Shown here: piece by piece, positions 2,681 to 16,353 of the stretch
Layout of the letters: each line of letters opens with the position of its first letter
How positions within the stretch are numbered: position 1 is the stretch's first letter
NCBI GenBank assembly: GCA_947623845.1
Contig: CANQHM010000010.1
Location: forward strand, 1 to 29,972
Direction: 5' to 3'
DNA: 29,972 bases
DNA from: an uncultured Bacilli bacterium
GTDB taxonomy: Bacteria > Bacillota_I > Bacilli_A > RF39 > UBA660
Notes under the pieces: model-generated
Databases searched by the model: none
Told to the model about the DNA's origin: nothing
The model's input: the letters and a program-made list of their open reading frames with translations, nothing else
Made by a program: the position numbers and the translations under genes

Positions 2681-3679
2681 ATGACTAAAAATTTTACTAC
2701 AATTACTTTAAGACCTATGATGAAAATTTCTGAAATGGTTCCATATTTAAAACAAAAGAATATTAAATTTGAAGAATGCAAAGAACAAGATGCGGAACAA
2801 TATCTTAGAGAAAGCAACAATTATTTTAATGTAACATCATACAAAAATAATTTCGTTAAGTATCAGTATGGGAAATCAACGGGAAAATATATTGACTTGG
2901 ATTTTGCTTACTTGAAAGATCTATCTATTATAGATTATAGAACTAGAATTGTGCTATTTAAAATGATAATTGATATTGAACATTATTTAAAGATTAGAAT
3001 ATTAAATAGTATTGAGGAAATAGATGAAGAAGACGGATACAATATTGTAAATTTATATCTTGATAAAGATTATAATGATGAACAGTTTCCTAAAAGAGTG
3101 CATGATAGTATTATGAAGAAAGTATCTAATGAATATTATAAAAAAATATTTTCAAAGTATGATTTAGATAAAGATAAAAAACTTGAAAATATTCCAATAT
3201 GGGAGTTTTTAGAAATAATAACTTTTGGAGAATTGATAAACTTTTTTGAATTTTTTACTGCTCATTATAATTTAGAAGATAAAAAATATGTATTTATTTT
3301 AAGAGAAGTAAATAAACTTAGAAATGCAGTAGCTCATAATTCTTGTGTATTATCCGACCTTGATAAAAAAGATAATACCCATAGACCAGATATTTTAATT
3401 ATTAACTACCTAAAAGATTGTGGTATAGGAAAAGAAAATCGAGATAATAAACTAAAAAATTCAAGAATAAGACAAATAACTTATACTTTATATTTATTTA
3501 ATGTTATTGTAAGTAGCGATGGAATAAAAAGAAATGTTAACCATGATATTAGTAAATTATTTTATGGAAGAATAATTCTTAATAGAAAATACTATACTAA
3601 TAATGAACTACTTAAATCCATTTATCAATATTTTGATAAAATAATTGAAAAAAATTATAAAGAAATTTTGGATGAGTAG
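2681..3679 (+). CDS. Abi_2/AbiD-AbiF family HEPN protein (putative abortive-infection RNase)
   Basis: 332 residues with the Abi_2 pattern: an N-terminal segment with YxxNxFVKYQ and a basic/aromatic stretch, a helical core (DYRTRIVLFKMIIDIEHYLKIRI, about residues 85-107), an IPIWEFLEIITFGEL helix (about 171-185), and the HEPN RNase motif R214-NAVA-H219-N220. In known families the R-x4-6-H motif is the active site of HEPN ribonucleases, and Abi_2 proteins act as growth-arresting toxins in phage defence. The gene has its own extended -10 promoter and a normal Shine-Dalgarno. Its stop codon is followed, one base later, by the -35 box of a candidate small RNA. The family call is from motif recognition. 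RNase activity and control by the adjacent RNAs are inferred. Confidence 0.85.
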   Translation: MTKNFTTITLRPMMKISEMVPYLKQKNIKFEECKEQDAEQYLRESNNYFNVTSYKNNFVKYQYGKSTGKYIDLDFAYLKDLSIIDYRTRIVLFKMIIDIEHYLKIRILNSIEEIDEEDGYNIVNLYLDKDYNDEQFPKRVHDSIMKKVSNEYYKKIFSKYDLDKDKKLENIPIWEFLEIITFGELINFFEFFTAHYNLEDKKYVFILREVNKLRNAVAHNSCVLSDLDKKDNTHRPDILIINYLKDCGIGKENRDNKLKNSRIRQITYTLYLFNVIVSSDGIKRNVNHDISKLFYGRIILNRKYYTNNELLKSIYQYFDKIIEKNYKEILDE

Positions 3680-3680
3680 T

Positions 3681-3709
3681 TTGACATAGATAAAATTTTG
3701 TGATATATT
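3681..3709 (+). promoter_or_regulatory. Consensus sigma-A promoter of small RNA 1
   Basis: TTGACA (3681-3686), 17-base spacer, TATATT (3704-3709) preceded by TGa. It starts one base after the stop codon of the Abi_2 gene, and no credible protein gene follows it within its transcription unit. Confidence 0.8.
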
Positions 3710-3715
3710 ATCTAT

Positions 3716-3777
3716 GCAAGGAAAAAATGTTAAATCATTTTTGCATGGGGTCTATTTTAGGATAGAGCCCTATTTTT
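3716..3777 (+). ncRNA. Candidate small RNA 1 next to the Abi_2 gene
   Basis: A unit of about 62 nt bounded by a consensus promoter and an intrinsic terminator. Hairpin 1: GC (3716-3717) plus AAAAATG (3723-3729) pairs with CATTTTT plus GC (3736-3744), leaving an A/G bulge on the 5' side. Hairpin 2: ATGGGG-TCTAT (3745-3755) pairs with ATAGA-CCCTAT (3762-3773) with one bulged G, loop TTTAGG and five T, so it is also the terminator. Structured RNAs called abiF RNA have been described beside Abi_2/AbiF genes; from memory, not a database match, this is my leading interpretation. A 12-codon frame at 3727-3765 has an AAGG upstream, but its start is buried in the hairpin. Confidence 0.65.
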
Positions 3778-3792
3778 CTGCAATAAAAAGGA

Positions 3793-3821
3793 TTGATAGT
3801 ATCCAAAATATATGGTATACT
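3793..3821 (+). promoter_or_regulatory. Consensus sigma-A promoter of small RNA 2
   Basis: TTGATA (3793-3798), 17-base spacer, TATACT (3816-3821). It begins 15 bases after the T-run of small RNA 1. Confidence 0.75.
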
Positions 3822-3827
3822 TTACAT

Positions 3828-3898
3828 CGAGTAGTGCCTAGAAAACTTTTGAAGCTCTAGGTCATTCAAAGCCTAGTTTAATAACTAGGTTTTAATTT
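3828..3898 (+). ncRNA. Candidate small RNA 2, two CCTAG/CTAGG hairpins
   Basis: A unit of about 70 nt with a strong promoter and terminator and no open frame. Hairpin 1: CCTAGA (3837-3842) pairs with TCTAGG (3856-3861). Hairpin 2: CCTAGTT (3872-3878) pairs with AACTAGG (3883-3889), loop TAAT, followed by TTTTAATTTT. The single-stranded link GTCATTCAAAG between the hairpins could be a pairing or binding site. It could be a second antitoxin-like RNA for the Abi_2 gene, or belong to the SWIM gene downstream. No family is recognised. Confidence 0.55.
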
Positions 3899-3923
3899 TG
3901 GATTAAATTAATAAAAATATATT

Positions 3924-3971
3924 AATCGTTTGATCGAAGATTGAACGATTCTTAACTAAAATAGCTATTTT
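3924..3971 (+). promoter_or_regulatory. 12-bp hairpin plus 14-bp palindrome ahead of the SWIM gene
   Basis: 3924-3935 pairs with 3939-3950 (12 bp including two G-T pairs) around a GAA loop, with no T-run after it, so it is not an ordinary terminator. Eight bases on lies the perfect palindrome AAAATAGCTATTTT (3958-3971), which covers the expected -35 region of the SWIM-gene promoter and is a good operator candidate. Confidence 0.5.
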
Positions 3972-3981
3972 TGGTGATTAA

Positions 3982-3990
3982 TGATATAAT
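3982..3990 (+). promoter_or_regulatory. Extended -10 promoter of the SWIM gene
   Basis: TGa-TATAAT (TATAAT 3985-3990). The start would fall near 3997, inside the Shine-Dalgarno GAGGTGAT, giving a very short 5' leader. The upstream palindrome overlaps the -35 position. Confidence 0.6.
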
Positions 3991-4007
3991 ACTTGCGAGG
4001 TGATACT

Positions 4008-5588
4008 ATGAGTATTCTTACAAGTGCAAGTGGTTCTTCTGTTAGGAGAGGATATGATTATTACAAAAGTAATAGGGTTCATAATGTAAATCAATTAAAT
4101 GAGCATGAATATGAGGGATATGTGGATGGTAGTTTAAGAAATCCTTATTATGTAAAAATAAATATAGAGCATCCTAGAAAGTCATATTGTGATTGCCCAC
4201 ATGCAAACGGAAATATTACATGTAAACATATGACAGCCTTATATTTTGAATTATTTCCTGAGGAAGTAGAAGATTATGAATCTTGGTTAAATAGTGACTA
4301 TGATGAAGATGAGGAAGATTATGATTATGATAGTTACTATGAAGAAGAAGACTATTATGGTTATAGAAGTAATTCTAAATTTGAAAAACCATTGTTCTTT
4401 GATATAGTATTAGAAAAATATGTGAATGATCTTAATGTGGAACAATTACGCGAAATTTTACTTACAGAACTTAGAAATAATGAAAAAAGAACATTTGAAT
4501 TGTATTTAGAAAAAAATTATAAAAAGTACTTGGAAAAGAATAACGAATCTTTTGTCTTCTTAGATAAACTAAATAAAAAGATTCAAGATTTAACTAGTTA
4601 CTACGATTATGACTATAATGATTTTGATAAAGAAATATTAAATGTTAGAGATAGAAGAAAAATAGAAGAACTTTATAAAAATAAAATGCTTAGATCACAA
4701 ATAGATAAAATACTATTTAATGAAAAATTAGCGGTATATTCGGATTATGAATGGATTGCTTGTTTTTATAAAAATAATAAGAATTCTGATGAAATTAAGG
4801 AGTACTGTAATACTTTAGAAAATTATTTAGATAGTTTAAAGCATTATAGTATAAAAAATACTGTTCCAAAATCTAACGTTTTAATAACAATATATTTATT
4901 AAGTAATTATAAGATTGCAGAAATTGCTAATTCATTATTAAAAAATGCTAAATATTTACAATATACAGATTATGTTGTGAGAAATTCTAGTAATGTTAAT
5001 GAATTATATTTAGAATTTATGAAATTAATAAATAAGAATTATTTTAAAAATAAAATTTATATTCCAGATGTATTATACCGATTTGTTTCGGCGACAGAAT
5101 ATGAAAATAAAGAAATAAATATAAGTTATTTTTTGTATAGCTATCTATGTTTAGGTCATGTTGAATACCTAGAGATTTTATCTCATGATTTATCTTCACA
5201 AGAAGTTATAAGATTAATAGAAACTAAAACTAAAGATACATTTTTACTTATTAAACTTTATAAATTTTATAATGAAATAGATAAGTTGTGGGAGGTACTT
5301 AAAGATAGTAAGTATAGATACTTATTATTAAATAATATAGATTTGTTAAAAGATAAATATAATGATGAATTATATAATTATTGTATTAATGAATTTTATA
5401 ATATTCTTAAAGAAGGTAAGAGTAGAGAAGTTTATCGCAAAGCAGCAGTATATATTAAAGCCATTTCCAAATTAAATGGTGGTGATAAACTTGTAGATAG
5501 TATAATATCTAGTTTGAAACAATCGGAATATCAAAAATGTTTGGCATTATTCGATGAAATAAATAAAGCACTTAGAAATGAAATTTAA
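4008..5588 (+). CDS. SWIM zinc-finger protein
   Basis: 526 residues. The N-terminal SWIM finger is clear: C61-D-C63 ... C72-K-H74 (CxCxnCxH), a zinc-binding fold found in DNA- or protein-binding contexts. It is followed by a very acidic, tyrosine-rich stretch (about residues 95-120, runs of D/E/Y) and a long helical, asparagine- and lysine-rich region to the end with no other domain I recognise. The start is set at ATG 4008 because GAGGTGAT sits at the right distance; a TTG at 3993 is in frame but lies upstream of the Shine-Dalgarno. Bacterial SWIM proteins often accompany MoxR-type ATPases and vWA proteins. No ATPase is present here, but a vWA gene follows about 860 bases on. Function unknown. 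Confidence 0.85.
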   Translation: MSILTSASGSSVRRGYDYYKSNRVHNVNQLNEHEYEGYVDGSLRNPYYVKINIEHPRKSYCDCPHANGNITCKHMTALYFELFPEEVEDYESWLNSDYDEDEEDYDYDSYYEEEDYYGYRSNSKFEKPLFFDIVLEKYVNDLNVEQLREILLTELRNNEKRTFELYLEKNYKKYLEKNNESFVFLDKLNKKIQDLTSYYDYDYNDFDKEILNVRDRRKIEELYKNKMLRSQIDKILFNEKLAVYSDYEWIACFYKNNKNSDEIKEYCNTLENYLDSLKHYSIKNTVPKSNVLITIYLLSNYKIAEIANSLLKNAKYLQYTDYVVRNSSNVNELYLEFMKLINKNYFKNKIYIPDVLYRFVSATEYENKEINISYFLYSYLCLGHVEYLEILSHDLSSQEVIRLIETKTKDTFLLIKLYKFYNEIDKLWEVLKDSKYRYLLLNNIDLLKDKYNDELYNYCINEFYNILKEGKSREVYRKAAVYIKAISKLNGGDKLVDSIISSLKQSEYQKCLALFDEINKALRNEI

Positions 5589-6260: not shown

Positions 6261-6425
6261 ACAAAAAGGAGAAAGACTCATACAGCAAACTATAAAAGAT
6301 GGAATACTTAATATACTTGATCACGGTATATAGGAGTCTTGGAATTAAAGCCACGAACAGCAAAAAAAGGTAAATAATTAAAAAGAAATATTTATTGGGT
6401 GATCGTGGGTGGCTTGTTCCTTTTT
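6261..6425 (+). ncRNA. Structured RNA/leader upstream of the Ro60-like vWA gene
   Basis: A candidate RNA of about 165 nt that ends in a terminator-like stem and T5 just before the gene. Domain 1: AAGACTC (6273-6279) pairs with GAGTCTT (6334-6340) and encloses about 54 nt. Domain 2: GGAA (6341-6344) plus AAGCCAC (6348-6354) pairs with GTGGCTT (6409-6415) plus TTCC (6417-6420), then TTTTT (6421-6425). GATCAC (6319-6324) can also pair with GTGATC (6399-6404) across the domains as a pseudoknot, though this could be chance. It may be a separate RNA bound by the protein (compare Y RNA with Ro60) or an attenuator leader. It lacks the T-box core and no riboswitch class is recognised. Confidence 0.6.
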
Positions 6426-6447
6426 GATTATATTGGAGGTGTTTCTA

Positions 6448-7884
6448 ATGAAATTATTAGAGGGAATAAAAGTAAAAAATACGAAATTAAATTCTAAAGG
6501 AGGAGAATATTATGCAACAACATATGATGCTAATATTGATGTATTTACTATGCTTTCACGTTTTAATAAAAAAGAAGATATAATTAGATTATTCGAATTA
6601 GCTCTTAATGAAAATGCTGATTTAGCATTAGCTAATTTATTATATATACTAGATATTAGAAATGGTAAGGGAGAAAGGAGATTATTTAAAATAATTTATA
6701 ATTTCTTATGTAATAATTATCGGGATTATGCTTTAAAAGTTCTTCCTTTTATAAGTGAATTAGGAAGATATGATTATATATTAATAGGCATAGGTACTTT
6801 AGTCGAAGATGAAACGATTAATATTATTAAAGAACAATTAGAATTAGATAAAACGAGTGATAATCCCTCATTACTTGCTAAATGGTTACCTTCTCATAGA
6901 ACGCATGGAGTTAATAATTTATTAGCTAAGAAATTAGTTAAAGCCTTAGGTATGACTGAAAAGGAATATAGAATGACCTTGACAGCCATTAGAAATAAAT
7001 TAAATTTAGTAGAAAAAAACTTAACAACTAAAGATTACGATAAAATTGATTTTGCTAAAGTTCCTGCCAAAGCAATGCTTAAATATAGTAATTCCTATAA
7101 TAAAAATATGAGTGAAAAATTTAAGGAATATAAAGAAGCTTTAGCTAAAGGAGAAAGAAAAATTAATACAACAGGGTTATATTCTTATGAAATAATTAAA
7201 AAAATATTAATGGGGCAAAAATGTGATGCGGCATTATATGATTTAATGTGGAAAAATCAAAAAGAAATTCTTCTAAGTAGCACTAAAAATTTATTAGTAG
7301 TTGCTGATACATCTGGTTCAATGCATTGTTATGATGCTATTCCTTATTGTACATCAGTAGGACTTGCAATGTATATTGCTGAAAGAAATAAGGGTTTCTT
7401 TAAAAATCATTTTATAACTTTTTCGGAAAAACCAACATTACAAGAAATTAATGGTAAAACTTTATTAGAAAAAGTTCGTAATATGGAAGAAATAAATGCC
7501 TGGAATACGGACATAGATAAAGTATTTAAACTTATTTTAAATGTTGCTTTAGAAAATAAGCTAAAACAAGAAGATTTACCAGAAAAGATTTTGATTATTT
7601 CGGATATGGAATTTGATAGAGGAGTTTTTTCTAAAACAGGGACAAATTATAATGGATGGAAAAAAGCTTTTCAAGAAGCAGGTTATATACTTCCAACGAT
7701 TATATTTTGGAATGTAGCGGGTGCTACTAACGGAGTACCAGTAACAAAATTTGATAAAGATGTAGCATTGGTAAGTGGTTTTTCAACAAATATTCTTGAT
7801 AATCTTCTAGATCTTGATAATTATTCTGTAGAAAATATTATGTTAGAAAAACTTTCAATATATTTGGAAATGTTAAAGTCCTAG
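6448..7884 (+). CDS. DUF2828-family vWA protein, Ro60-like architecture
   Basis: 478 residues. The N-terminal two-thirds is helical and carries DUF2828 signatures (LLYILDIRNGKGERRLF about 64-80, WLPSHRTHGVNNLLAKKLVKALG about 146-168, KVPAKAMLKYSNSY about 204-217). The C-terminal third is a von Willebrand A domain with intact MIDAS residues: D287-T-S-G-S291, T354 in WNTD, D386 in ISDMEF. The plan (helical repeat ring plus MIDAS vWA) resembles TROVE/Ro60 proteins, which bind Y RNA and misfolded RNA. Homology to Ro60 is an architectural argument, not a demonstrated match. The start is ATG 6448 behind GGAGGTG; the in-frame GTG at 6409 lies inside the upstream RNA stem. The structured RNA sits immediately upstream. 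The stop codon lies inside its terminator. Confidence 0.85.
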   Translation: MKLLEGIKVKNTKLNSKGGEYYATTYDANIDVFTMLSRFNKKEDIIRLFELALNENADLALANLLYILDIRNGKGERRLFKIIYNFLCNNYRDYALKVLPFISELGRYDYILIGIGTLVEDETINIIKEQLELDKTSDNPSLLAKWLPSHRTHGVNNLLAKKLVKALGMTEKEYRMTLTAIRNKLNLVEKNLTTKDYDKIDFAKVPAKAMLKYSNSYNKNMSEKFKEYKEALAKGERKINTTGLYSYEIIKKILMGQKCDAALYDLMWKNQKEILLSSTKNLLVVADTSGSMHCYDAIPYCTSVGLAMYIAERNKGFFKNHFITFSEKPTLQEINGKTLLEKVRNMEEINAWNTDIDKVFKLILNVALENKLKQEDLPEKILIISDMEFDRGVFSKTGTNYNGWKKAFQEAGYILPTIIFWNVAGATNGVPVTKFDKDVALVSGFSTNILDNLLDLDNYSVENIMLEKLSIYLEMLKS

Positions 7885-7908
7885 TTTTAAACTAGGTTTT
7901 ATTTTTTT
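7880..7908 (+). terminator. Terminator of the vWA gene
   Basis: CCTAGTT (7880-7886) pairs with AACTAGG (7890-7896) around TTA, then a long T-run. The stop codon is part of the stem. The stem is identical to the terminator stem of small RNA 2. Confidence 0.9.
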
Positions 7909-7928
7909 TACTGATAACTATATTATAG

Positions 7929-7937
7929 TGGTACAAT
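7929..7937 (+). promoter_or_regulatory. Extended -10 promoter of the frameshifted acidic protein gene
   Basis: TGg-TACAAT (7932-7937), about 22 bases before the first start codon, with no good -35 box. Confidence 0.55.
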
Positions 7938-7959
7938 AAATTTAAAAAGGAAAGGATTG

Positions 7960-8479
7960 ATGCTTATGCCAGCTTGGAATTTTGGAAATTTAGGAGCTTC
8001 TTGCAAAAAAAGAAAGGAAACTAGTTAAGGAATTGTTAGAATGCCTTGGGGTTGATTTTACTATGAATAATGAAACAGAAAGTGGAATTATATCTAATAA
8101 ATATATGCCACAATTTGAAGGAATGATTAAAACTAATATTACTGATTTATTAGATGTATATTATATTGCTAATGGTTTATTTATTGATAAAGAATTATAT
8201 AAAGATGAAGAGATACTATATGAACTTATAAAAAATGATTCTTTTGATAACTTAGGTGATAGATTATCTTATTTAAAAATCCTTAATGATGAAAATTTTC
8301 TAAAAAGAATTTTAGAGTTAGATGAATATAATAAAAGATATGAAGAAAATAATCACCATAAAAGTATAGTGGCGGAAGAAGAAGGGGAAGAACCAAGGGA
8401 AGATGCGACTAATAATGACGATGGTTGGGCATCTTTTGCAGATGATATAGAAATTAGTGATGATGATTTAACTTTTTAA
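7960..8479 (+). pseudogene. Acidic protein gene with a +1 frameshift at an A7 run
   Basis: A start (ATG 7960 or 7966, behind AAGGAAAGGA) opens a frame MPAWNFGNLGASCKK that stops at 8026. The coding frame continues one base out of register as KLVKELLECLGVDF and runs to 8479. Removing one A from the A7 run at 8005-8011 joins them into about 170 residues: SCKK-ERKLVKELLECLG. No usable ribosome site precedes the downstream part (the TTG at 8033 has none), so it is not a separate gene. The C-terminus is very acidic (WASFADDIEISDDDLTF). The family is unrecognised. The break may be a sequencing error, a real mutation, or functional slippage at the A run. It is followed 18 bases later by the zinc-ribbon gene, probably in one transcript. 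Confidence 0.75.
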
Positions 8480-8497
8480 TAAGGTAAGGTGAATAGT

Positions 8498-9448
8498 ATG
8501 GCTCATATGGGATGTGATTGCGGAAATAATATGTGGGATGGTGATGGCGAAATTGTTTATGATGTCTATAAAAAAGAGGACTTTGTAAAATATATTCAAG
8601 ATAATGGGGATGCTACATTTGAAGATCTATGTGATAAAAATACTTTAATTACTGAAGATAACGCTTATTTTTGGTTATGTGATAAATGTAAGATGGCTCA
8701 ACTATGGAGTTATGATCCTAAATATTGTTATAGAACTTTTAAACGATGTGAAATAACAGGAAATTTAGATATTAAAGAGATTCAAAAATTAGAGGAGTAT
8801 TTTATATTTAATTTAAATGATAATTATTATGATTTTCTGTTAAGTGAGATTATAAAGGAAAACCCTATAAGACCTTATAAATATTATGCCGAAGAAGATT
8901 TAGCTAAAGTTTATATAATAGATACCAATACTAATAAAGTAGATAGAGTTTATGAACTTATTTATGAGTCATTTGTGAGATATGATGTCAAAATGGAGAG
9001 TTTCAATAACTTATTAATATATACGATTGATAAAGAAAATAAGGAATTTTCATATGAAGTTAAAGATGGGAAAAGAATATTAATTGATGATAATGACTAT
9101 CCGCATCGGCAAGTTAATTATATGACAAACGAAAAAAACGAGAATGGGGGAGTATATTATTTAGATCCATCTAAAGAAGTGAAAGTTTATACTTCTGATG
9201 ATATGGATGAATTTTATCAAAAATATGACAAGTATTATCGAAAATACTATTATGTTGAATATTTAGATTGCCAAGGAGATAAATTATATTGTTATAGTGC
9301 TAATAAAGATCATGAAGTAGGAGATATTGTGAAAGTTCCTAGAGGTTATGATGATGAAGAAGTTGAAGCTAGAATTGTTAGTATAAAGTATTATAGTGAT
9401 AAAGAAGCTCCTTATCCTTATGAAAGATTAAAAGATATAATAGATTAA
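8498..9448 (+). CDS. Zinc-ribbon protein of unknown function
   Basis: 316 residues. The N-terminus holds a zinc ribbon made of C6-x-C8 (GCDCGNNMW) and C61-x2-C64 (LCDKCKMAQLW). The middle is lysine- and tyrosine-rich without a known domain. The last 65 residues (YYVEYLDCQGDKLYCYS ... VGDIVKVPRG ... EARIVSIKYY ... PYPYERLKDII) look like a small beta-barrel module of the kind seen at PriA-like N-termini and in many phage or defence genes; this is a recollection, not a match. The start is ATG 8498 with AAGGTG at six bases; the GTG at 8489 overlaps that site. It shares a transcript with the frameshifted acidic gene and has its own terminator. Confidence 0.75.
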   Translation: MAHMGCDCGNNMWDGDGEIVYDVYKKEDFVKYIQDNGDATFEDLCDKNTLITEDNAYFWLCDKCKMAQLWSYDPKYCYRTFKRCEITGNLDIKEIQKLEEYFIFNLNDNYYDFLLSEIIKENPIRPYKYYAEEDLAKVYIIDTNTNKVDRVYELIYESFVRYDVKMESFNNLLIYTIDKENKEFSYEVKDGKRILIDDNDYPHRQVNYMTNEKNENGGVYYLDPSKEVKVYTSDDMDEFYQKYDKYYRKYYYVEYLDCQGDKLYCYSANKDHEVGDIVKVPRGYDDEEVEARIVSIKYYSDKEAPYPYERLKDIID

Positions 9449-9450
9449 TT

Positions 9451-9473
9451 CCTAGTGTAATGACTAGGTTTTT
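9451..9473 (+). terminator. Terminator after the zinc-ribbon gene
   Basis: CCTAGT (9451-9456) pairs with ACTAGG (9463-9468), followed by five T. Confidence 0.85.
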
Positions 9474-9478
9474 AAATG

Positions 9479-9507
9479 TTTAAAAAAAGAGAAATTTATT
9501 ATATAAT
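9479..9507 (+). promoter_or_regulatory. Promoter of the DraG-MBL-nuclease operon
   Basis: TATAAT (9502-9507) with a weak -35 TTTAAA (9479-9484) at a 17-base spacing. It starts the three-gene operon. Confidence 0.6.
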
Positions 9508-9530
9508 TAGTTAGAAGATGGTGATTTAAT

Positions 9531-10475
9531 ATGTCAATTATCAAAGATTCATTATATGGTTTTGCTATCGGCGATGCTATGGGTGTTCCGATTGAGTTTG
9601 AAAATAGAGATAAGTTAAAGAATAACTTAGTTACTTCTATGTTAGGATATGGGAGTTATGATGTGCCGAAAGGGACGTGGTCTGATGATACTTCTATGAC
9701 CTTAGCAACAATAGATTCGTTAATAAATAATAAAGGGGAATTAAATTATAATGATATAGCTGATAAGTTTTGTGATTGGATTAATAATGCTACTTATACC
9801 GCGACAGGGGAAATATTTGATATTGGGATTACCACAAAATATGCTTTAATGCGTTATTGGAACGATAAAACGGATGCTACAAAATGCGGAGGTAGTGGTT
9901 TTTTAGAAAACGGAAATGGGTCTTTAATGCGGATGCTACCAATAGCTTGGTATGCTTATTATAATAAGTTAGAAGATGAAGAGATAGTTAAAGTAGTAAG
10001 AAATGTATCTTCTATTACGCATGCGCATGATATTAGTATTATGGGATGTTATATTTATGTTAAATATGTCTTATTTTTATTACAAGGTTATGATAAATAT
10101 ACAAGTTATAAGATGGTAAAAGATTTAGATTATAAAGAGTTTAGTGAAGAAGCAAATGATGAATATAAAAGATTTTTAAATAGTGATATTGCTAAAGCAA
10201 AGTTAGATGATATATCTTCTACGGGTTATGTTGTGTATACTTTAGAAACGGTTATGTGGGTGATATTAAATTGTAGTAGCTATAATGAAACAATTATTGG
10301 GGCGATTAACTTAGGAGGAGATACCGATACTATCGGAGCGATATGTGGTTCGATTGCAGGAATTTTATATGGTTTTGATAATATTAACAAGAAATGGTTA
10401 AAAGATTTAGAAGGAAAAGATAAATTAAACTATTATATTGCGAGTATGGAAAAAATCTTTCATGATAGAATTTAG
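9531..10475 (+). CDS. ADP-ribosylglycohydrolase (DraG family)
   Basis: 314 residues, close to full length for DraG/ARH enzymes, which remove ADP-ribose from proteins, nucleic acids or small molecules using a two-metal centre. The metal-binding motifs are all present: GDAMGVPIEF (14-23), WSDDTSMTL (50-58), a GNGSLMRMLP segment (128-137), a central HAHD (164-167) and LGGDTDTIGA (261-270). It is the first gene of an operon with the beta-CASP protein (26-base gap) and the PD-(D/E)xK-like protein. The Shine-Dalgarno is GGTGAT. In Ter-type and other conflict-related clusters this family co-occurs with vWA proteins, which matches the gene two units upstream. The substrate here is unknown. Confidence 0.92.
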   Translation: MSIIKDSLYGFAIGDAMGVPIEFENRDKLKNNLVTSMLGYGSYDVPKGTWSDDTSMTLATIDSLINNKGELNYNDIADKFCDWINNATYTATGEIFDIGITTKYALMRYWNDKTDATKCGGSGFLENGNGSLMRMLPIAWYAYYNKLEDEEIVKVVRNVSSITHAHDISIMGCYIYVKYVLFLLQGYDKYTSYKMVKDLDYKEFSEEANDEYKRFLNSDIAKAKLDDISSTGYVVYTLETVMWVILNCSSYNETIIGAINLGGDTDTIGAICGSIAGILYGFDNINKKWLKDLEGKDKLNYYIASMEKIFHDRI

Positions 10476-10501
10476 ATAATATAGAGTAGTAGAGGTGAAG
10501 T

Positions 10502-11782
10502 ATGAAAGTAAAAATTATTAAAGGTACAGAACAAATAGGAGGTTGTATTACGGAGATAACCAGTGATAAAGGAACTAAAATTATTATTGATTATGGGGAA
10601 GATTTAGTAGATAATCCTATGGCTTGTACCGATTACCCTTTAAAAGGACTTACACATGGAAAGACCAAATATAAGGGCGTATTTATAACCCATAGTCATG
10701 GTGATCATATCGGTCTTATTACAAAGATTAAGAAAGATATTCCAGTCTATGTTGAAGAAGTTTCAGCTAAAATATATGAAGTATCCAATGATTTTTGTTC
10801 TAATGAACAATTTAAGGGTAATCTAAAGAAATTTAAATTTGAAGATAAAATAATAATAGATGATTTAGTTATAACCCCATATCGTACTGATCATTCGGCG
10901 TATAATTCTAGTATGTTTTTAATAGAAAATAATGGGAAAAGAGTATTACATTTAGGAGATTATCGTTCTACGGGGTATAGTGGGGGAGTATTTTATGATA
11001 ACTTAAGAAAAATTGGGCCAGTAGATTTATTAATAACCGAAGGAACTAATGTTACTAATCCTAAAACAACACCTCTTAGTGAAGAAAAGCTAAAAGAAAA
11101 AGCTAAAGAAATATTTAAAAAATATAAACAAGTATTTATCTTACAAGCTTCTACAAATTTAGATCGTTTACGTAGTTTTAAAGAAGCGGCTAAAGAAACT
11201 GGTAAAAAATTTATCTTAGATATTTCGACCGCTAATATCTTAAAAGCTATAAATGATCCTAATTACGAGTATTTGCGTGATAAAGATGTCTCAGTATGGG
11301 TACCTAATGCTTATTCTAAAAATAATAATTCTAAGAGAGTAGAAAGTTTTTATACCCATAAAAGTCCTAATTTTTATGATACTTATATTAAACCATTTGA
11401 TGATTCTAAACTTAAAAATACACATGTTTATGACGAGTACGTGATGTTAGTTAAAACGTCTATGGCTTCAGATATAAAGTATAATTTAAAAAATTATCAT
11501 GATAAGGCCCATTTAATATATTCGATGTGGCTAGGGTATAGAGATAAAGAAAGACCTAATACAGAAAAGATGATAGATTTTTTAGAGGAATTAGAGAAAC
11601 TTGGTATTCATAATGAATATCTTCATACTTCGGGACATGCGGATTTAAAAACCATTAAAGAAGTATTTGAGATAGTTAAACCTAAAAAAGCGATTGGTAT
11701 TCATACCGAAGATAATGCGAAATTAGCAGAATACTGTTCAAACTATGTTATAATAAGTGACAAGGAAGAAATTGAGGTGTAA
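10502..11782 (+). CDS. Beta-CASP metallo-beta-lactamase-fold nuclease (RNase J-like)
   Basis: 426 residues. Metallo-beta-lactamase motifs: H64-S-H66-G-D68-H69, TDHSAYN with H131, and LGD with D153. C-terminal beta-CASP motifs are HTSGHADLKTI and IGIHTED, as in RNase J/CPSF73-type ribonucleases. It is shorter than housekeeping RNase J (about 550 residues) and lacks that enzyme's C-terminal extension, so it is a specialised relative. Known beta-CASP proteins cut or digest RNA, some DNA. It is tightly linked to the next gene (two bases between stop and start), suggesting coupled translation and a joint role. The Shine-Dalgarno is GAGGTGAAGT. Confidence 0.9.
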   Translation: MKVKIIKGTEQIGGCITEITSDKGTKIIIDYGEDLVDNPMACTDYPLKGLTHGKTKYKGVFITHSHGDHIGLITKIKKDIPVYVEEVSAKIYEVSNDFCSNEQFKGNLKKFKFEDKIIIDDLVITPYRTDHSAYNSSMFLIENNGKRVLHLGDYRSTGYSGGVFYDNLRKIGPVDLLITEGTNVTNPKTTPLSEEKLKEKAKEIFKKYKQVFILQASTNLDRLRSFKEAAKETGKKFILDISTANILKAINDPNYEYLRDKDVSVWVPNAYSKNNNSKRVESFYTHKSPNFYDTYIKPFDDSKLKNTHVYDEYVMLVKTSMASDIKYNLKNYHDKAHLIYSMWLGYRDKERPNTEKMIDFLEELEKLGIHNEYLHTSGHADLKTIKEVFEIVKPKKAIGIHTEDNAKLAEYCSNYVIISDKEEIEV

Positions 11783-11784
11783 TA

Positions 11785-13473
11785 ATGGGAAGTAGAAATA
11801 ATAGTGGCATGAAACTAGAAGGAATGACTTTAAAAAAATTTATCGAAGGATTTGATGCTAATTTTGAAGATTTTATTTTACGGGTAAGAGATCCTAAAAA
11901 AGAATATAATACCGGCGATAATAATAAAAGTTTAGTTTATTATAATGGAATAGAATCCTTCACAGTTAAAGATAATGGGGAATCTATAGAGCTAGATTTT
12001 CCAATAAATGTATATAAATTAAATCCTACGGGGTTTAAAAATGTCGCTAAAGATAACAATGAGGAAGAAGTTTTAGCTGATGTACTAGTAGAAGATCTTG
12101 AAGAAGGGGAGTCTTTGGCGCAAAAGGAAAAAAACTATCGAAAAGAAGTCGGTGATATCCTAGATGCGATGCATAGATTGTTTGATTTTGAAATGAGTAA
12201 AATTAAATTTGATATAAATTTTGAAGAAAAAGATCCTGAGAAAAATAAAGAGAAAAAGAAAGTAAAAACTAAAAACCAAATAGTAAATGAATTTTATAAA
12301 TTAATTAAAGAGTTTACAAAATATACGGCTTCCCATAATCGTGCTAAGAATAGAGACTTAGATAAGCTTTATGAAATAACTAATGATAAAAATGATGATA
12401 TTATTTATTCTAATGCCACTAAGGAAGAAGTTAAAAATATTTGTGATGAATTATCTGGTAAAGTTAGCTTTATTTTAACATTTATACCTCCTCTTACAAC
12501 TAAAAAAGAAGAAATGAATTCAACCCCTAAAGATATTATTACTTTACAATGTTGGTTTTTAAGAAAAGCAAGAGATATTGGAACCGCTAGTGGACTTGAA
12601 TTTACCGTTTGTTCTAATTATATAAATAAAAATTATAAACCAGAGATAGCCTTAAGTAAATTTTCGAAAAATACAAAGAAAGCGATTGATAAATATAAAA
12701 AGACATCGTGCAGGAAACTAGAAAAAACATATCAACATTATTTTATGCTTCGAGCTAAGGAAATGAAAGATTTATTTGCGGTTAAAGAAGGAGAGTTTAT
12801 CGATTATTTTGAACAAGAATATGGTATTTATAATCCAAATGTATTTGGGGCAGAAAAATTTATGAGTGATCAAAAGAAAGATAAAACAGGAAGAATAGAT
12901 TGTATTGTTTATAAATATAGAAAAAATGGTAATACGAGAGTTATAAGTGATATATACATGATTGAATTAAAAGTTAATTGTGATGTCGTATTAGGAAATA
13001 ATGGGGTTATGACTCATTTAGAAGATATTAAAGCTTTCTTAAACCTAAACACTACAGATAAATGGCGTTATTATGATTATCTTACTTTAGAAAAAAGAAT
13101 TAGTGATCGCATAAAAATAATATCAGGAGAAGAAGTGAATTTAGATAAGGTAGCTAAACACTTCTATACCGTAATTGGCTATACTAATAAAGATGAAAAA
13201 GACAGCGTAATGCAAATGTTAAATAGTTTAACGACTGATGAAGGAATTAAAGAGATGATTCTAACGGGTGTTTCTAAAAAAGTTAAAGGGGAAACTAAAA
13301 GATATAAACTAGATCCGCGTTTTGAAGGAACAACCCTTCTAGCTTTAAAAGAAGATATTAAAGATTGTGAGATAAAATTTTTCTTAGAAAGTATAAAAAA
13401 AGAAGATTTTACGAAAGAAGATATCGGCTTAGAATTTAAAGATATAACGGAGGAAATATTTAGTGATAATTAA
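11785..13473 (+). CDS. Large protein with a PD-(D/E)xK nuclease-like motif
   Basis: 562 residues, not assigned to a named family. Residues 100-165 contain acidic and lysine-rich (KEKKKVKTK) stretches, and 165-345 are helical. Residues 366-400 carry the best functional clue: GRID372 ... IELK with E394 and K396, the D-x(n)-ExK core of PD-(D/E)xK nucleases, followed by a predicted helix region (HLEDIKAFL). The translation start is two bases after the beta-CASP stop, so the two are co-translated. Context with an RNA-type nuclease and an ADP-ribose hydrolase fits a nucleic-acid-targeting effector or repair protein. Nuclease activity is inferred from a short motif. Confidence 0.7.
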   Translation: MGSRNNSGMKLEGMTLKKFIEGFDANFEDFILRVRDPKKEYNTGDNNKSLVYYNGIESFTVKDNGESIELDFPINVYKLNPTGFKNVAKDNNEEEVLADVLVEDLEEGESLAQKEKNYRKEVGDILDAMHRLFDFEMSKIKFDINFEEKDPEKNKEKKKVKTKNQIVNEFYKLIKEFTKYTASHNRAKNRDLDKLYEITNDKNDDIIYSNATKEEVKNICDELSGKVSFILTFIPPLTTKKEEMNSTPKDIITLQCWFLRKARDIGTASGLEFTVCSNYINKNYKPEIALSKFSKNTKKAIDKYKKTSCRKLEKTYQHYFMLRAKEMKDLFAVKEGEFIDYFEQEYGIYNPNVFGAEKFMSDQKKDKTGRIDCIVYKYRKNGNTRVISDIYMIELKVNCDVVLGNNGVMTHLEDIKAFLNLNTTDKWRYYDYLTLEKRISDRIKIISGEEVNLDKVAKHFYTVIGYTNKDEKDSVMQMLNSLTTDEGIKEMILTGVSKKVKGETKRYKLDPRFEGTTLLALKEDIKDCEIKFFLESIKKEDFTKEDIGLEFKDITEEIFSDN

Positions 13474-13487
13474 TAATAAGGTGGAAT

Positions 13488-13687
13488 ATGAATGAAAAGT
13501 ATGAAGGATTTTTAAATAATGCTCACGAATTAAATAGAAAGTTTGGAATAGTTCCTTTGTTATATAGAAATTTTAACTAAGTCTAATTTAGATGCTAAAG
13601 ATATTGATATTTTAATACCAGAAGTATTTATTAAAGGAGCTAGATGGGAAGAAAATTAAGTTTATAGAAGAACAAATTAATAAATAA
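13488..13687 (+). pseudogene. Decayed nucleotidyltransferase-like gene
   Basis: The first frame (ATG 13488, behind AAGGTGG) reads NNAHELNRKFGIVPLLY and then stops. A second frame continues with EILTKSNLDAKDIDILIPEVFIKG and stops at 13659, and a third adds KFIEEQINK to 13687. Together they match a small family I associate with nucleotidyltransferase folds, in which PLLYGSLGLE...DIDILIP is expected. The GSLGL part, holding the Gly-Ser active-site motif, is deleted, leaving the frames out of register. At least two lesions make this a true remnant rather than one sequencing error. It fills most of the gap between the island and the ABC transporter. Confidence 0.65.
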
Positions 13688-13710: not shown

Positions 13711-13740
13711 AAGAAAGTAGTGATTATTTTCTTATTTTTT
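13711..13740 (+). terminator. Weak A/T terminator at the island's right end
   Basis: AAGAAA (13711-13716) can pair with TTTCTT just before a T-run. The stem is A/T-only apart from two pairs, so this is a weak call. Confidence 0.35.
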
Positions 13741-13748
13741 GATATAAT
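13740..13748 (+). promoter_or_regulatory. Extended -10 promoter of the ABC transporter gene
   Basis: TGa-TATAAT (13743-13748). No strong -35 box. Confidence 0.6.
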
Positions 13749-13779
13749 TACACTAGATTTTTTTAAAAGGAGAGATAAT

Positions 13780-16353
13780 ATGTTAGAGATTAAAAAAATA
13801 ACGAAAACATATGAAACTGATGGCTTTAAGCAAAAAGCTTTACATAATGTTAGTATTAACTTTCGAAAGAATGAATTTGCTTCTATTTTAGGACCTAGTG
13901 GTAGTGGTAAAACAACACTGCTTAATATTATTGGAGGTCTAGATAGATATGATTCAGGCGACTTAGTAATTAATGAAGTTAGTACCAAGAAATATAAAGA
14001 CCGGGATTGGGATTCTTATCGGAATCATCGAGTTGGTTTTGTATTTCAAAGTTATAATTTAATTGCCCATCAAAGTGTCTTACAAAATGTCGAACTTGCT
14101 CTTACTTTATCGGGAGTATCTAAAGGAGAAAGAAGAAGACGAGCAAAACAAGTTTTAAAAAGTGTGGGACTAGAAAAACATATTAATAAATTACCTAATC
14201 AATTATCAGGTGGGCAAATGCAAAGAGTTGCTATAGCTAGAGCTTTAATAAATGACCCAGATATCTTACTAGCAGATGAACCTACGGGAGCTTTAGATAG
14301 TGAAACTAGTACGCAAATTATGGATTTATTAAAAGAAGTAGCTAAAGATAAATTAGTTATCATGGTTACCCATAATCCCGATTTAGCTAAAAAGTATTCA
14401 TCAAGAATTATTAAATTAAAAGATGGGGAAGTTACCGATGATTCACATCCTTATGATGGTAAAGATAATACCAAAGAAGCCTTAGAAATTGAAAAATCAA
14501 AAAGTAAAAAGACTTCCATGAGTTTAGTTACCGCTTTATCATTATCTTTAAATAACTTAATGACAAAAAAGGGAAGAACAATCCTTACCGCTTTTGCTGG
14601 AAGTATTGGTATTATAGGGATTGCCCTTATCTTATCATTATCTCATGGACTTAATAGTTATATTGGCAAAGTTGAAGAAGATACCTTATCATTATATCCT
14701 TTAACATTAGAAAAAGCATCTATGGATAGAGCAAGTTTAATGGAATCATTTATGGAAATTGAAAATAGGGATGAAGAACTAAAAAATGATAAAGTATATT
14801 CTAATAATATTATGACAGATTTAATATCATCAGTAGCTGGTTCAAGATTAGATAATGACTTAAAAGGATTTAAAGAATATATAGAAAGTGGAAAATCTTC
14901 TATAAACGATTATGTTAGTGATATAAGATATAAATATAATTTAAATTTAAATATCTATAAAGCCGATTATGAAGATAAAATTACCCAAGTAAATCCTAGT
15001 ACAGTTTTTGATAATATTGGAATTGGTAATGAAATGATGAGTCAAGTAAGTGGTAGTAGCATGATGGGGATGAATGAAGTAAACTCATGGGTTGAATTAC
15101 CAGATAAAGAAGAAGTATTAAAATCCCAATATGATTTAGTAGCAGGTAAATTACCAGAAAACTATAATGAAGTAGTACTCGTAATGGATCAAAATAACGA
15201 AGTTAGTGATTATGCCCTATATTCTTTAGGATTACTTAATCAAGATGAACTTAAAAGTATTGTCGGAAAAATAATGAATGGGGAAGAAATAGAGAAAAAA
15301 GATACTTATGAATATGAGTATGATGAAATTATTGGTCTTAAATATAAATTACTTTTAAATACCGATTATTATGAAAAACAAGGTAATATTTGGGTTGATA
15401 AGAGTAATGATGAAAAGTATATGAAGAAAAAATTAGATAATGCCTTAGATATTGAAGTTGTTGGTATTATTAAGATTAGTGAAGACTCTTCCGCAGTAAC
15501 AACGGGAGTTATTGGCTATACTAAAGATTTAATGGAATATACTGTTGGCAAGATAAATGAAACAAAGATAGTTAAAGAACAACTTGCTGACCCTAAAAAG
15601 AATGTTTTTACAGGCTTAGAATTTAGCGAAAATCCGGCATTTGATATGAAAGATTTACCAATAGAACAACAACAATATTTAGCTAGTTTATCCCAAGAAG
15701 AATTAGCGAAAGTTATTGCGGAATATAGTGAAAATGCGACAGCAACATATGAAACAAATATTCAAAAATTAGGAGTCGTAGATTTAGAAGACCCTTATAC
15801 GATTGAGTTATATCCTAAGGACTTTGAATCTAAAGATAAGATAGTTTCCGTAATTGATGACTTTAATAAAGATCGGGATGAAGATGAACAACTTATTTAT
15901 ACCGATGTTGTTGGCGTAATGATGAGTTCGGTAACGACAATTATTAATGCCATAAGTTATATCTTAATCGCCTTTGTAAGTATTTCTTTAGTAGTATCTT
16001 CTATTATGATAGCAATTATTACATATATTTCCGTTATTGAAAGAACAAAAGAAATTGGTATATTAAGAGCTATTGGAGCAAGAAAGAAAGATGTTTCACG
16101 CGTATTTAATGCGGAGACTTTAATTGAAGGTTTATTTGCGGGAGTTTTAGGAATAGTTGTAACTATTTTACTTAACATTCCAATTAATATGGTAATTGAA
16201 AACATTACAAGTATTTCTGGCTTAGCAAAATTACCAATGGGTGGGGGAATAATCTTAGTAATTATTTCGGTAACTTTAACCTTTATTGCTGGTTTAATTC
16301 CTGCAAGGATGGCAAGCAAGAGAGACCCAGTTGTAGCTTTAAGAACCGAATAA
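13780..16353 (+). CDS. MacB-type ABC transporter, fused ATPase and permease
   Basis: 857 residues. The N-terminal ATPase is complete: Walker A GPSGSGKTT (38-46), Q-loop Gln90, signature LSGGQ (142-146), Walker B ILLADEP with D166/E167, and H-loop His198. The permease follows with one membrane helix at about 265-285, a large extracellular domain (about 290-740) and three C-terminal helices in a FtsX/MacB layout with the ERTKEIGILRAIGA loop. MacB-type (type VII) transporters drive lipoprotein, peptide or toxin export mechanically rather than by transmembrane passage. Fused forms occur in Firmicutes as peptide-resistance or signal transporters. The start is ATG 13780 behind AAAGGAGAG. No two-component system is adjacent, so the substrate is unknown. 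Confidence 0.93.
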   Translation: MLEIKKITKTYETDGFKQKALHNVSINFRKNEFASILGPSGSGKTTLLNIIGGLDRYDSGDLVINEVSTKKYKDRDWDSYRNHRVGFVFQSYNLIAHQSVLQNVELALTLSGVSKGERRRRAKQVLKSVGLEKHINKLPNQLSGGQMQRVAIARALINDPDILLADEPTGALDSETSTQIMDLLKEVAKDKLVIMVTHNPDLAKKYSSRIIKLKDGEVTDDSHPYDGKDNTKEALEIEKSKSKKTSMSLVTALSLSLNNLMTKKGRTILTAFAGSIGIIGIALILSLSHGLNSYIGKVEEDTLSLYPLTLEKASMDRASLMESFMEIENRDEELKNDKVYSNNIMTDLISSVAGSRLDNDLKGFKEYIESGKSSINDYVSDIRYKYNLNLNIYKADYEDKITQVNPSTVFDNIGIGNEMMSQVSGSSMMGMNEVNSWVELPDKEEVLKSQYDLVAGKLPENYNEVVLVMDQNNEVSDYALYSLGLLNQDELKSIVGKIMNGEEIEKKDTYEYEYDEIIGLKYKLLLNTDYYEKQGNIWVDKSNDEKYMKKKLDNALDIEVVGIIKISEDSSAVTTGVIGYTKDLMEYTVGKINETKIVKEQLADPKKNVFTGLEFSENPAFDMKDLPIEQQQYLASLSQEELAKVIAEYSENATATYETNIQKLGVVDLEDPYTIELYPKDFESKDKIVSVIDDFNKDRDEDEQLIYTDVVGVMMSSVTTIINAISYILIAFVSISLVVSSIMIAIITYISVIERTKEIGILRAIGARKKDVSRVFNAETLIEGLFAGVLGIVVTILLNIPINMVIENITSISGLAKLPMGGGIILVIISVTLTFIAGLIPARMASKRDPVVALRTE

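Follow-up and report, generated by a model that had tools for sequence, protein, structure and literature searches.

Two adjacent genes on the 29,972-nucleotide contig CANQHM010000010.1, from an uncultured Bacilli bacterium, form a cassette that travels between gut bacteria, sometimes as one fused protein. We analyzed the whole contig, called the window below. The first gene of the pair encodes a predicted beta-CASP hydrolase of RNase J type with a metallo-beta-lactamase fold (MBL), and the second encodes a 562-residue protein, H, in which a PD-(D/E)xK nuclease domain follows a variable, fast-evolving N-terminal half. We favor, with a probability of roughly 0.55, a role for the pair as a two-nuclease effector module of innate conflict, directed against phage or another mobile element. 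This would be a different way of joining an MBL enzyme, here from the RNase J branch, to a PD-(D/E)xK nuclease; it is seen in two orders of bacteria that have received little study, and the evidence for it includes fusion and block exchange. Among open-licence PMC papers, we found none on a pairing of beta-CASP and PD-(D/E)xK proteins.

MBL and H as a two-gene cassette

H is rare: when 7,998 candidates from a total of 5.8 billion were scored, 9 proteins emerged, H being one of them. A locus scan restricted to one genome per species returned 69 pattern-matching stretches, 18 of which encode relatives; their records comprise 16 uncultured Bacilli, one Clostridia, and one Clostridiales. MBL is the neighboring gene in 13 of these 18 loci and is fused in frame to H in two more (L011 and L013, with proteins of 1,036 or 1,035 amino acids), for a total of 15/18 adjacent or fused. 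The order is MBL followed by H in 11 of the 13 adjacent loci and reversed in two (L009, where MBL is cut by a contig boundary, and L010). H starts 2 bases past the MBL stop codon in the window, and the spacing is equal in L001, L002, and L003. The three loci with no MBL beside H are L004, where H lies about 400 bases from the contig end, L007, and L016. Where H lies apart from MBL (L007, L016, and L111), MBL is present elsewhere in the genome; for L007 and L016 this rests on contigs equated by inference with G054:C17 and G076:C30, which they match in length and gene layout, and MBL is on another contig there.

Genome-wide counts were made in 241 genomes from the order of L002's genome, with a threshold of E <= 1e-25 for MBL. 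Twenty-four of them carry MBL, 10 carry H, and six carry DUF2828, the family of another gene in the window. Nine of the 10 H genomes also carry MBL (p = 1.9e-9), while DUF2828 and MBL occur together in a single genome, on separate contigs (p = 0.47); because the genomes are relatives, these p-values are only a guide. Three further H-like genes beside MBL (L031, L036, and L037) were recovered by a local hidden Markov model (HMM) only. They were missed by the search based on alignment A2, which makes the count of 10 in 241 a minimum for H. RNase J-sized or remote proteins of L007, L027, L028, and L115 were excluded from the cassette MBL counts. Taken together, the evidence that MBL and H form a unit, a two-gene cassette, is good. 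The initial annotation had combined them with three other genes of the window (DUF2828, zinc-ribbon, and DraG) in one five-gene system; our neighborhood survey of H and MBL homologs bears out the link between the two nucleases, in 15/18 loci and 9/10 genomes, and does not extend it to the other three.

Nine of the 24 MBL genomes represent a side branch (approximately 35% identity) found beside SSB-sized genes, which leaves 15 in the cassette branch. The side-branch relatives in L043-L051 adjoin SSB-like genes of about 100 amino acids and ClpP-like genes (names given by eye from L043, L044, L045, and L050, with similar-sized genes in others of this set), and they apparently constitute a different branch.

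MBL matches Pfam Lactamase_B_2 and RMMBL, and its best PDB sequence matches are RNase J structures and EF2904 (2az4), with which it shares MBL and beta-CASP motifs. The window protein contains HxHxDH, the subsequent H and D, and the beta-CASP motifs SGHA and IHTE. Among 15 sequences examined, the metal-ligand motif HxHxDH and SGHA are present in all, the DHSxYN pattern in 13, and strict IHTE in seven, including the window. MBL is predicted to be an RNase J-type beta-CASP hydrolase with intact metal motifs. Unlike RNase J proper, cassette MBLs are only about 410-430 amino acids long and score far under the NCBIfam RNase J cut-offs (75.5 bits against 820); RNase J-sized weak matches were found elsewhere in the carrier genomes.

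In H, residues D372, E394, and K396 are invariant across 22 aligned sequences, and these D...(D/E)xK residues together with an alpha/beta core place it in the PD-(D/E)xK superfamily. Both nuclease folds had been called correctly in the initial annotation, and their catalytic residues are conserved. When PDB sequences were searched with the profile of H, the only match was a chance one (keratin, E 0.44), Foldseek with whole H gave no match at E <= 0.001, and searches of H with Pfam, PADLOC, and NCBIfam showed no protease family. Structure matches for residues 129-281 (VIA rows) include designed ferredoxin folds. Estimates of dN/dS among the window, L001, L002, and L003 were 0.11-0.23 for MBL and 0.30-0.42 for H, which indicates that both genes are maintained and that H evolves faster. 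H had no match in plasmids or phages, and none of 32 pattern stretches in IMG/VR was confirmed; MBL had four remote phage matches (23-25% identity).

Relatives of MBL were also surveyed in a second order, that of L009's genome (191 genomes). H is present in one of these genomes, that of L009 itself, and MBL relatives are present in 20 (query P0174, E <= 1e-40; a few are broken or cut). The neighbors of these MBLs belong to several families that blastp does not join at 1e-5. When compared by hhalign with the H domain, eight of 36 direct neighbors, in seven of the 20 loci, reached a probability of at least 20 (24 to 98), vs. one of 132 other genes (p = 1.7e-5), with the threshold of 20 having been fixed after part of these neighbor proteins had already been compared. 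The sole match that is not a direct neighbor, five genes from MBL in L151, is itself H-like (L151:11165-12697, 510 amino acids, HMM E 4e-31). Neighbor families c2 and c4 gave hhalign probabilities of at most 1.3; the D...ExK motifs in them, recognized only by visual inspection, were left out of the counts. As judged from these comparisons, the second-order MBL relatives appear to sit beside other PD-(D/E)xK-like proteins. At L155:5764-8166 we observed an 800-amino-acid MBL whose C-terminal extension bears a PD...EVK motif, apparently an independent fusion, although hhalign gives no support for this (probability 0.4).

An operon of replication paralogs and exchange of the cassette

Many relatives carry the cassette at the end of an operon that encodes, in order, a 348-amino-acid protein, a KOW protein, the first of two weakly DnaB-like proteins, a PolC-like protein, a 226-amino-acid protein, the second of the DnaB-like proteins (DnaB_C 1.3e-3, under its cut-off), MBL, and H. 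The operon spans L002:2666-8713, L011:1691-7721, L013:1133-7165, and L017:285-6328. By eye, the ATPase motifs of the two DnaB-like proteins are partly lost; the PolC-like protein is a palm/fingers protein, and the 348- and 226-amino-acid proteins have no known family.

Eleven of the 18 H loci (L002, L003, L005-L007, L011, L013-L015, L017, and L018) have a PolC-like or PolC gene nearby, mostly within this operon of stripped-down replication paralogs; the nearby gene is a full-length polC in L014 and the end of one, at the contig edge, in L007. The L002 protein matches the model of PolC-type DNA polymerase III alpha (2.7e-142) and, by eye, retains the palm aspartates, some of which are lost in the PolC-like proteins of L006 and L029. 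At 683 amino acids, it is far shorter than the 1,542-amino-acid PolC of L014, and the match spans PolC positions of approximately 609 to 1,390. The PolC-like protein is a paralog, with a near full-length PolC encoded elsewhere, in five of the six operon-bearing genomes searched (G001, G002, G003, G004, and G249); the sixth, G008, has a PolC fragment only, at a contig edge. In G250, which has no PolC-like copy, PolC is split over two contig pieces, and the PolC search of G251 was without any match. Three pairs of the PolC-like gene gave dN/dS of 0.10-0.14, so that it, MBL, and H are all constrained, H least.

Identities between loci are mosaic. Backbone proteins of the operon share 79-88% identity between L002 and L011, compared with 44% for MBL and 29% for H, while between L002 and L003 the backbone shares 47-55%, MBL 84%, and H 68%. 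The window, which has no backbone genes, shares 77-78% (MBL) and 59-61% (H) with L001-L003. These identities indicate that MBL and H move jointly and separately from the backbone. MBL-H is swapped as a cassette, and in the window it stands alone.

PolC-related proteins also occur within six genes of MBL in nine of the 20 second-order loci (L138-L140, L143, L144, and L146-L149), a figure without a control count. They directly adjoin MBL in L138, L139, L143, L144, and L146, and the one in L138 matches via an exonuclease domain.

Possible roles of the pair

We infer a defence role for MBL-H, and a role in conflict is favored because the pair is patchily present, with the cassette MBL branch in 15/241 genomes, and is exchanged as a block. 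MBL and H would act as one complex. Sensing of foreign or abnormal replication may fall to the fast-evolving half of H or to a partner, perhaps a replisome-like one, after which the PD-(D/E)xK domain of H would cut DNA; MBL could then degrade or trim the nucleic-acid ends left by the cut, or it could gate H. In the relatives that have it, the replisome-like operon preceding the cassette might serve as an adaptor or decoy. The flanking genes weigh against such a role: in a scan, without a control, of 82 of the 83 proteins encoded no more than 4 kb away (a count that leaves aside the full-length PolC of L014), the Pfam families, judged among 25 of 117 listed, were mostly of housekeeping kinds. 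Thirty-one PADLOC models, tallied by model and not by protein, matched one to three flank proteins each, likewise without a control, and the 25 listed include a DRT-type reverse transcriptase, PDC-S04, and SoFic.

A more specific form of the conflict role, replisome-mimic immunity, is possible but tentative. Here the PolC and DnaB paralogs would act as decoys when the host replisome is taken over, or would sense that takeover, with the MBL-H cassette that ends the operon as effector; the pairing would be general, such that in the second order the beta-CASP partner is retained, in many cases near a PolC-related protein, and the PD-(D/E)xK family is swapped. The link to PolC- and DnaB-like proteins suggests a testable idea, that cells' copies of replication proteins notice or misdirect invaders.

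The closest precedent for MBL-H is provided by the HamMAB/AVAST pairs, as portrayed in PMC12799240 (November 2025), which describes how nucleases of the MBL fold pair with immune effectors and how proteases serve as the activators. In HamMAB/AVAST the gene for the MBL-fold nuclease, a pro-nuclease, lies beside, and typically upstream of, a protease-effector partner, and the pairs move as modules between systems; gene order and modular mobility are what MBL-H has in common with them (PMC12799240). In the Hachiman context, the partner of the MBL-fold nuclease carries a HamA domain (PMC12799240). The differences lie in both proteins. That paper compares the HamMAB/AVAST MBL to a competence-type nuclease that has gating loops, whereas ours is RNase J-like beta-CASP; the partner there contains a trypsin-like protease, whereas family searches showed no protease in H; and its HamA motif has largely disappeared, whereas H keeps the D...ExK residues (PMC12799240). 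The motif of H reads D...ELK, vs. D-GEXK as given for HamA (PMC12799240; HamA structures 8vxy and 8zue). No PADLOC Hachiman match was found among eight window proteins tested, and no HamB-type helicase lies beside H in the window.

A role in replication or repair remains the main rival to the conflict reading. MBL and H would then process fork ends or flaps together with the stripped-down PolC, as a lineage-specific analogue of a mutasome. We regard this as unlikely, given that the cassette branch is confined to so few genomes of the order, that alleles are exchanged as a block, that palm aspartates are lost in some PolC-like copies, and that the window has the cassette and none of the operon genes. 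Tight pairing, the gap of 2 bases that the closest copies share, fusion, and cassette exchange would also fit a selfish, toxin-like pair, in which H is a toxic nuclease controlled by MBL, with addiction maintaining the pair and allele exchange spreading it. Yet both gene orders exist, and fusion together with the intact metal site suggests that MBL is an enzyme rather than an antitoxin, which makes this explanation improbable.

Least probable by far, in our judgment, is the five-gene system proposed initially, in which the vWA protein and its RNA recognize RNA that is damaged or foreign, the two nucleases act on this target, and DraG reverses ADP-ribosylation. All its genes do lie on a single strand, only 26 bases separate the DraG stop from the MBL start, and a weak DraG relative (25% identity) lies downstream of H in L003. 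No second DraG relative was found close to H at any of the 18 loci, however, and co-occurrence is not recurrent: homologs are scattered, the outcome named in the initial annotation as refuting the system, and the DUF2828, zinc-ribbon, and DraG genes do not recur with MBL and H. The vWA gene partners an HTH gene instead, and the region is without an RNA family. What stands of the initial observation is that the genes are real; neither an RNA-centered system nor reversal of an ADP-ribose mark by DraG found support.

Neighboring genes in the window

The coordinates of all features are collected in the table. MBL and H are flanked by DraG and an ABC transporter (Pfam), and the vWA, zinc-ribbon, and DraG genes are neighbors, not components of the cassette.

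Features of the window (contig of 29,972 bases), listed 5' to 3'; all genes listed are on the forward strand. Lengths are in amino acids (aa).
Feature	Position	Strand	Remarks
PEP-utilising dikinase	enters from window edge, ends 2561	+	
Abi_2 protein	2681-3679	+	Pfam 7.4e-23
Protein with sub-threshold SWIM match	3993-5588	+	
HTH-like protein, 132 aa	5801-6199	+	partner of DUF2828 gene
DUF2828/DUF7788 vWA protein	6445-7884 (open reading frame opens at 6409)	+	Pfam; separate unit with upstream HTH gene
Acidic protein, 148 aa	8033-8479	+	no family; no relatives in loci checked
319-aa protein, zinc-ribbon-like start	8489-9448	+	no family; adjacent, outside recurrent unit
DraG-type ADP-ribosylglycohydrolase	9531-10475	+	Pfam 1e-69; adjacent, outside recurrent unit
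MBL, 426 aa	10502-11782	+	predicted RNase J-type beta-CASP metallo-hydrolase; first cassette gene
HxHxDH metal motif of MBL	10691-10708	+	residues 64-69
H, 562 aa	11785-13473	+	second cassette gene
Variable N-terminal half of H	11785-12633	+	low conservation in alignment A2
PD-(D/E)xK nuclease domain of H	12634-13473	+	
Catalytic core of H	12898-12972	+	D372 (12898-12900), E394 (12964-12966), K396 (12970-12972)
ABC transporter	13720-16353	+	

The HTH gene (HTH132) and the DUF2828-vWA gene are a recurrent gene pair of their own. The vWA protein has at least 7,287 homologs, and a relative of HTH132 adjoins DUF2828 in four of six fetched loci (L063, L064, L066, and L067; not L065 or L068). The vWA protein matches DUF2828/DUF7788 and has no Pfam match to the TROVE domain, and a PDB sequence search with it gave no match. 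No Rfam family was matched in or near the region, and no Ro60-type RNA partner was found there. Relatives of the DUF2828, 319-residue, and 148-residue proteins were found beside neither MBL nor H in the loci checked, which include all 18 H loci.

A plasmid or phage origin of positions 6400-13500 was considered and rejected. This region has no DNA match in plasmids, and its phage DNA matches (40 records, 35 from Campylobacter and five from Enterococcus) all fall within the vWA gene among the 20 matches listed.

Just upstream, positions 2681-5588 encode the Abi_2 protein and a protein with a weak PDC-S62 match (1.1e-8). The Abi_2 and weak PDC-S62 proteins are possibly separate defence genes.

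The 319-residue protein is matched in five of the 241 genomes, in two over residues 4-253 and in three over the last 70 residues only. Both of the longer matches (L069 and L070) accompany other genes. The C-terminal part of about 70 residues (247-319) recurs alone in G056, G024, and G104, which suggests a mobile small domain.

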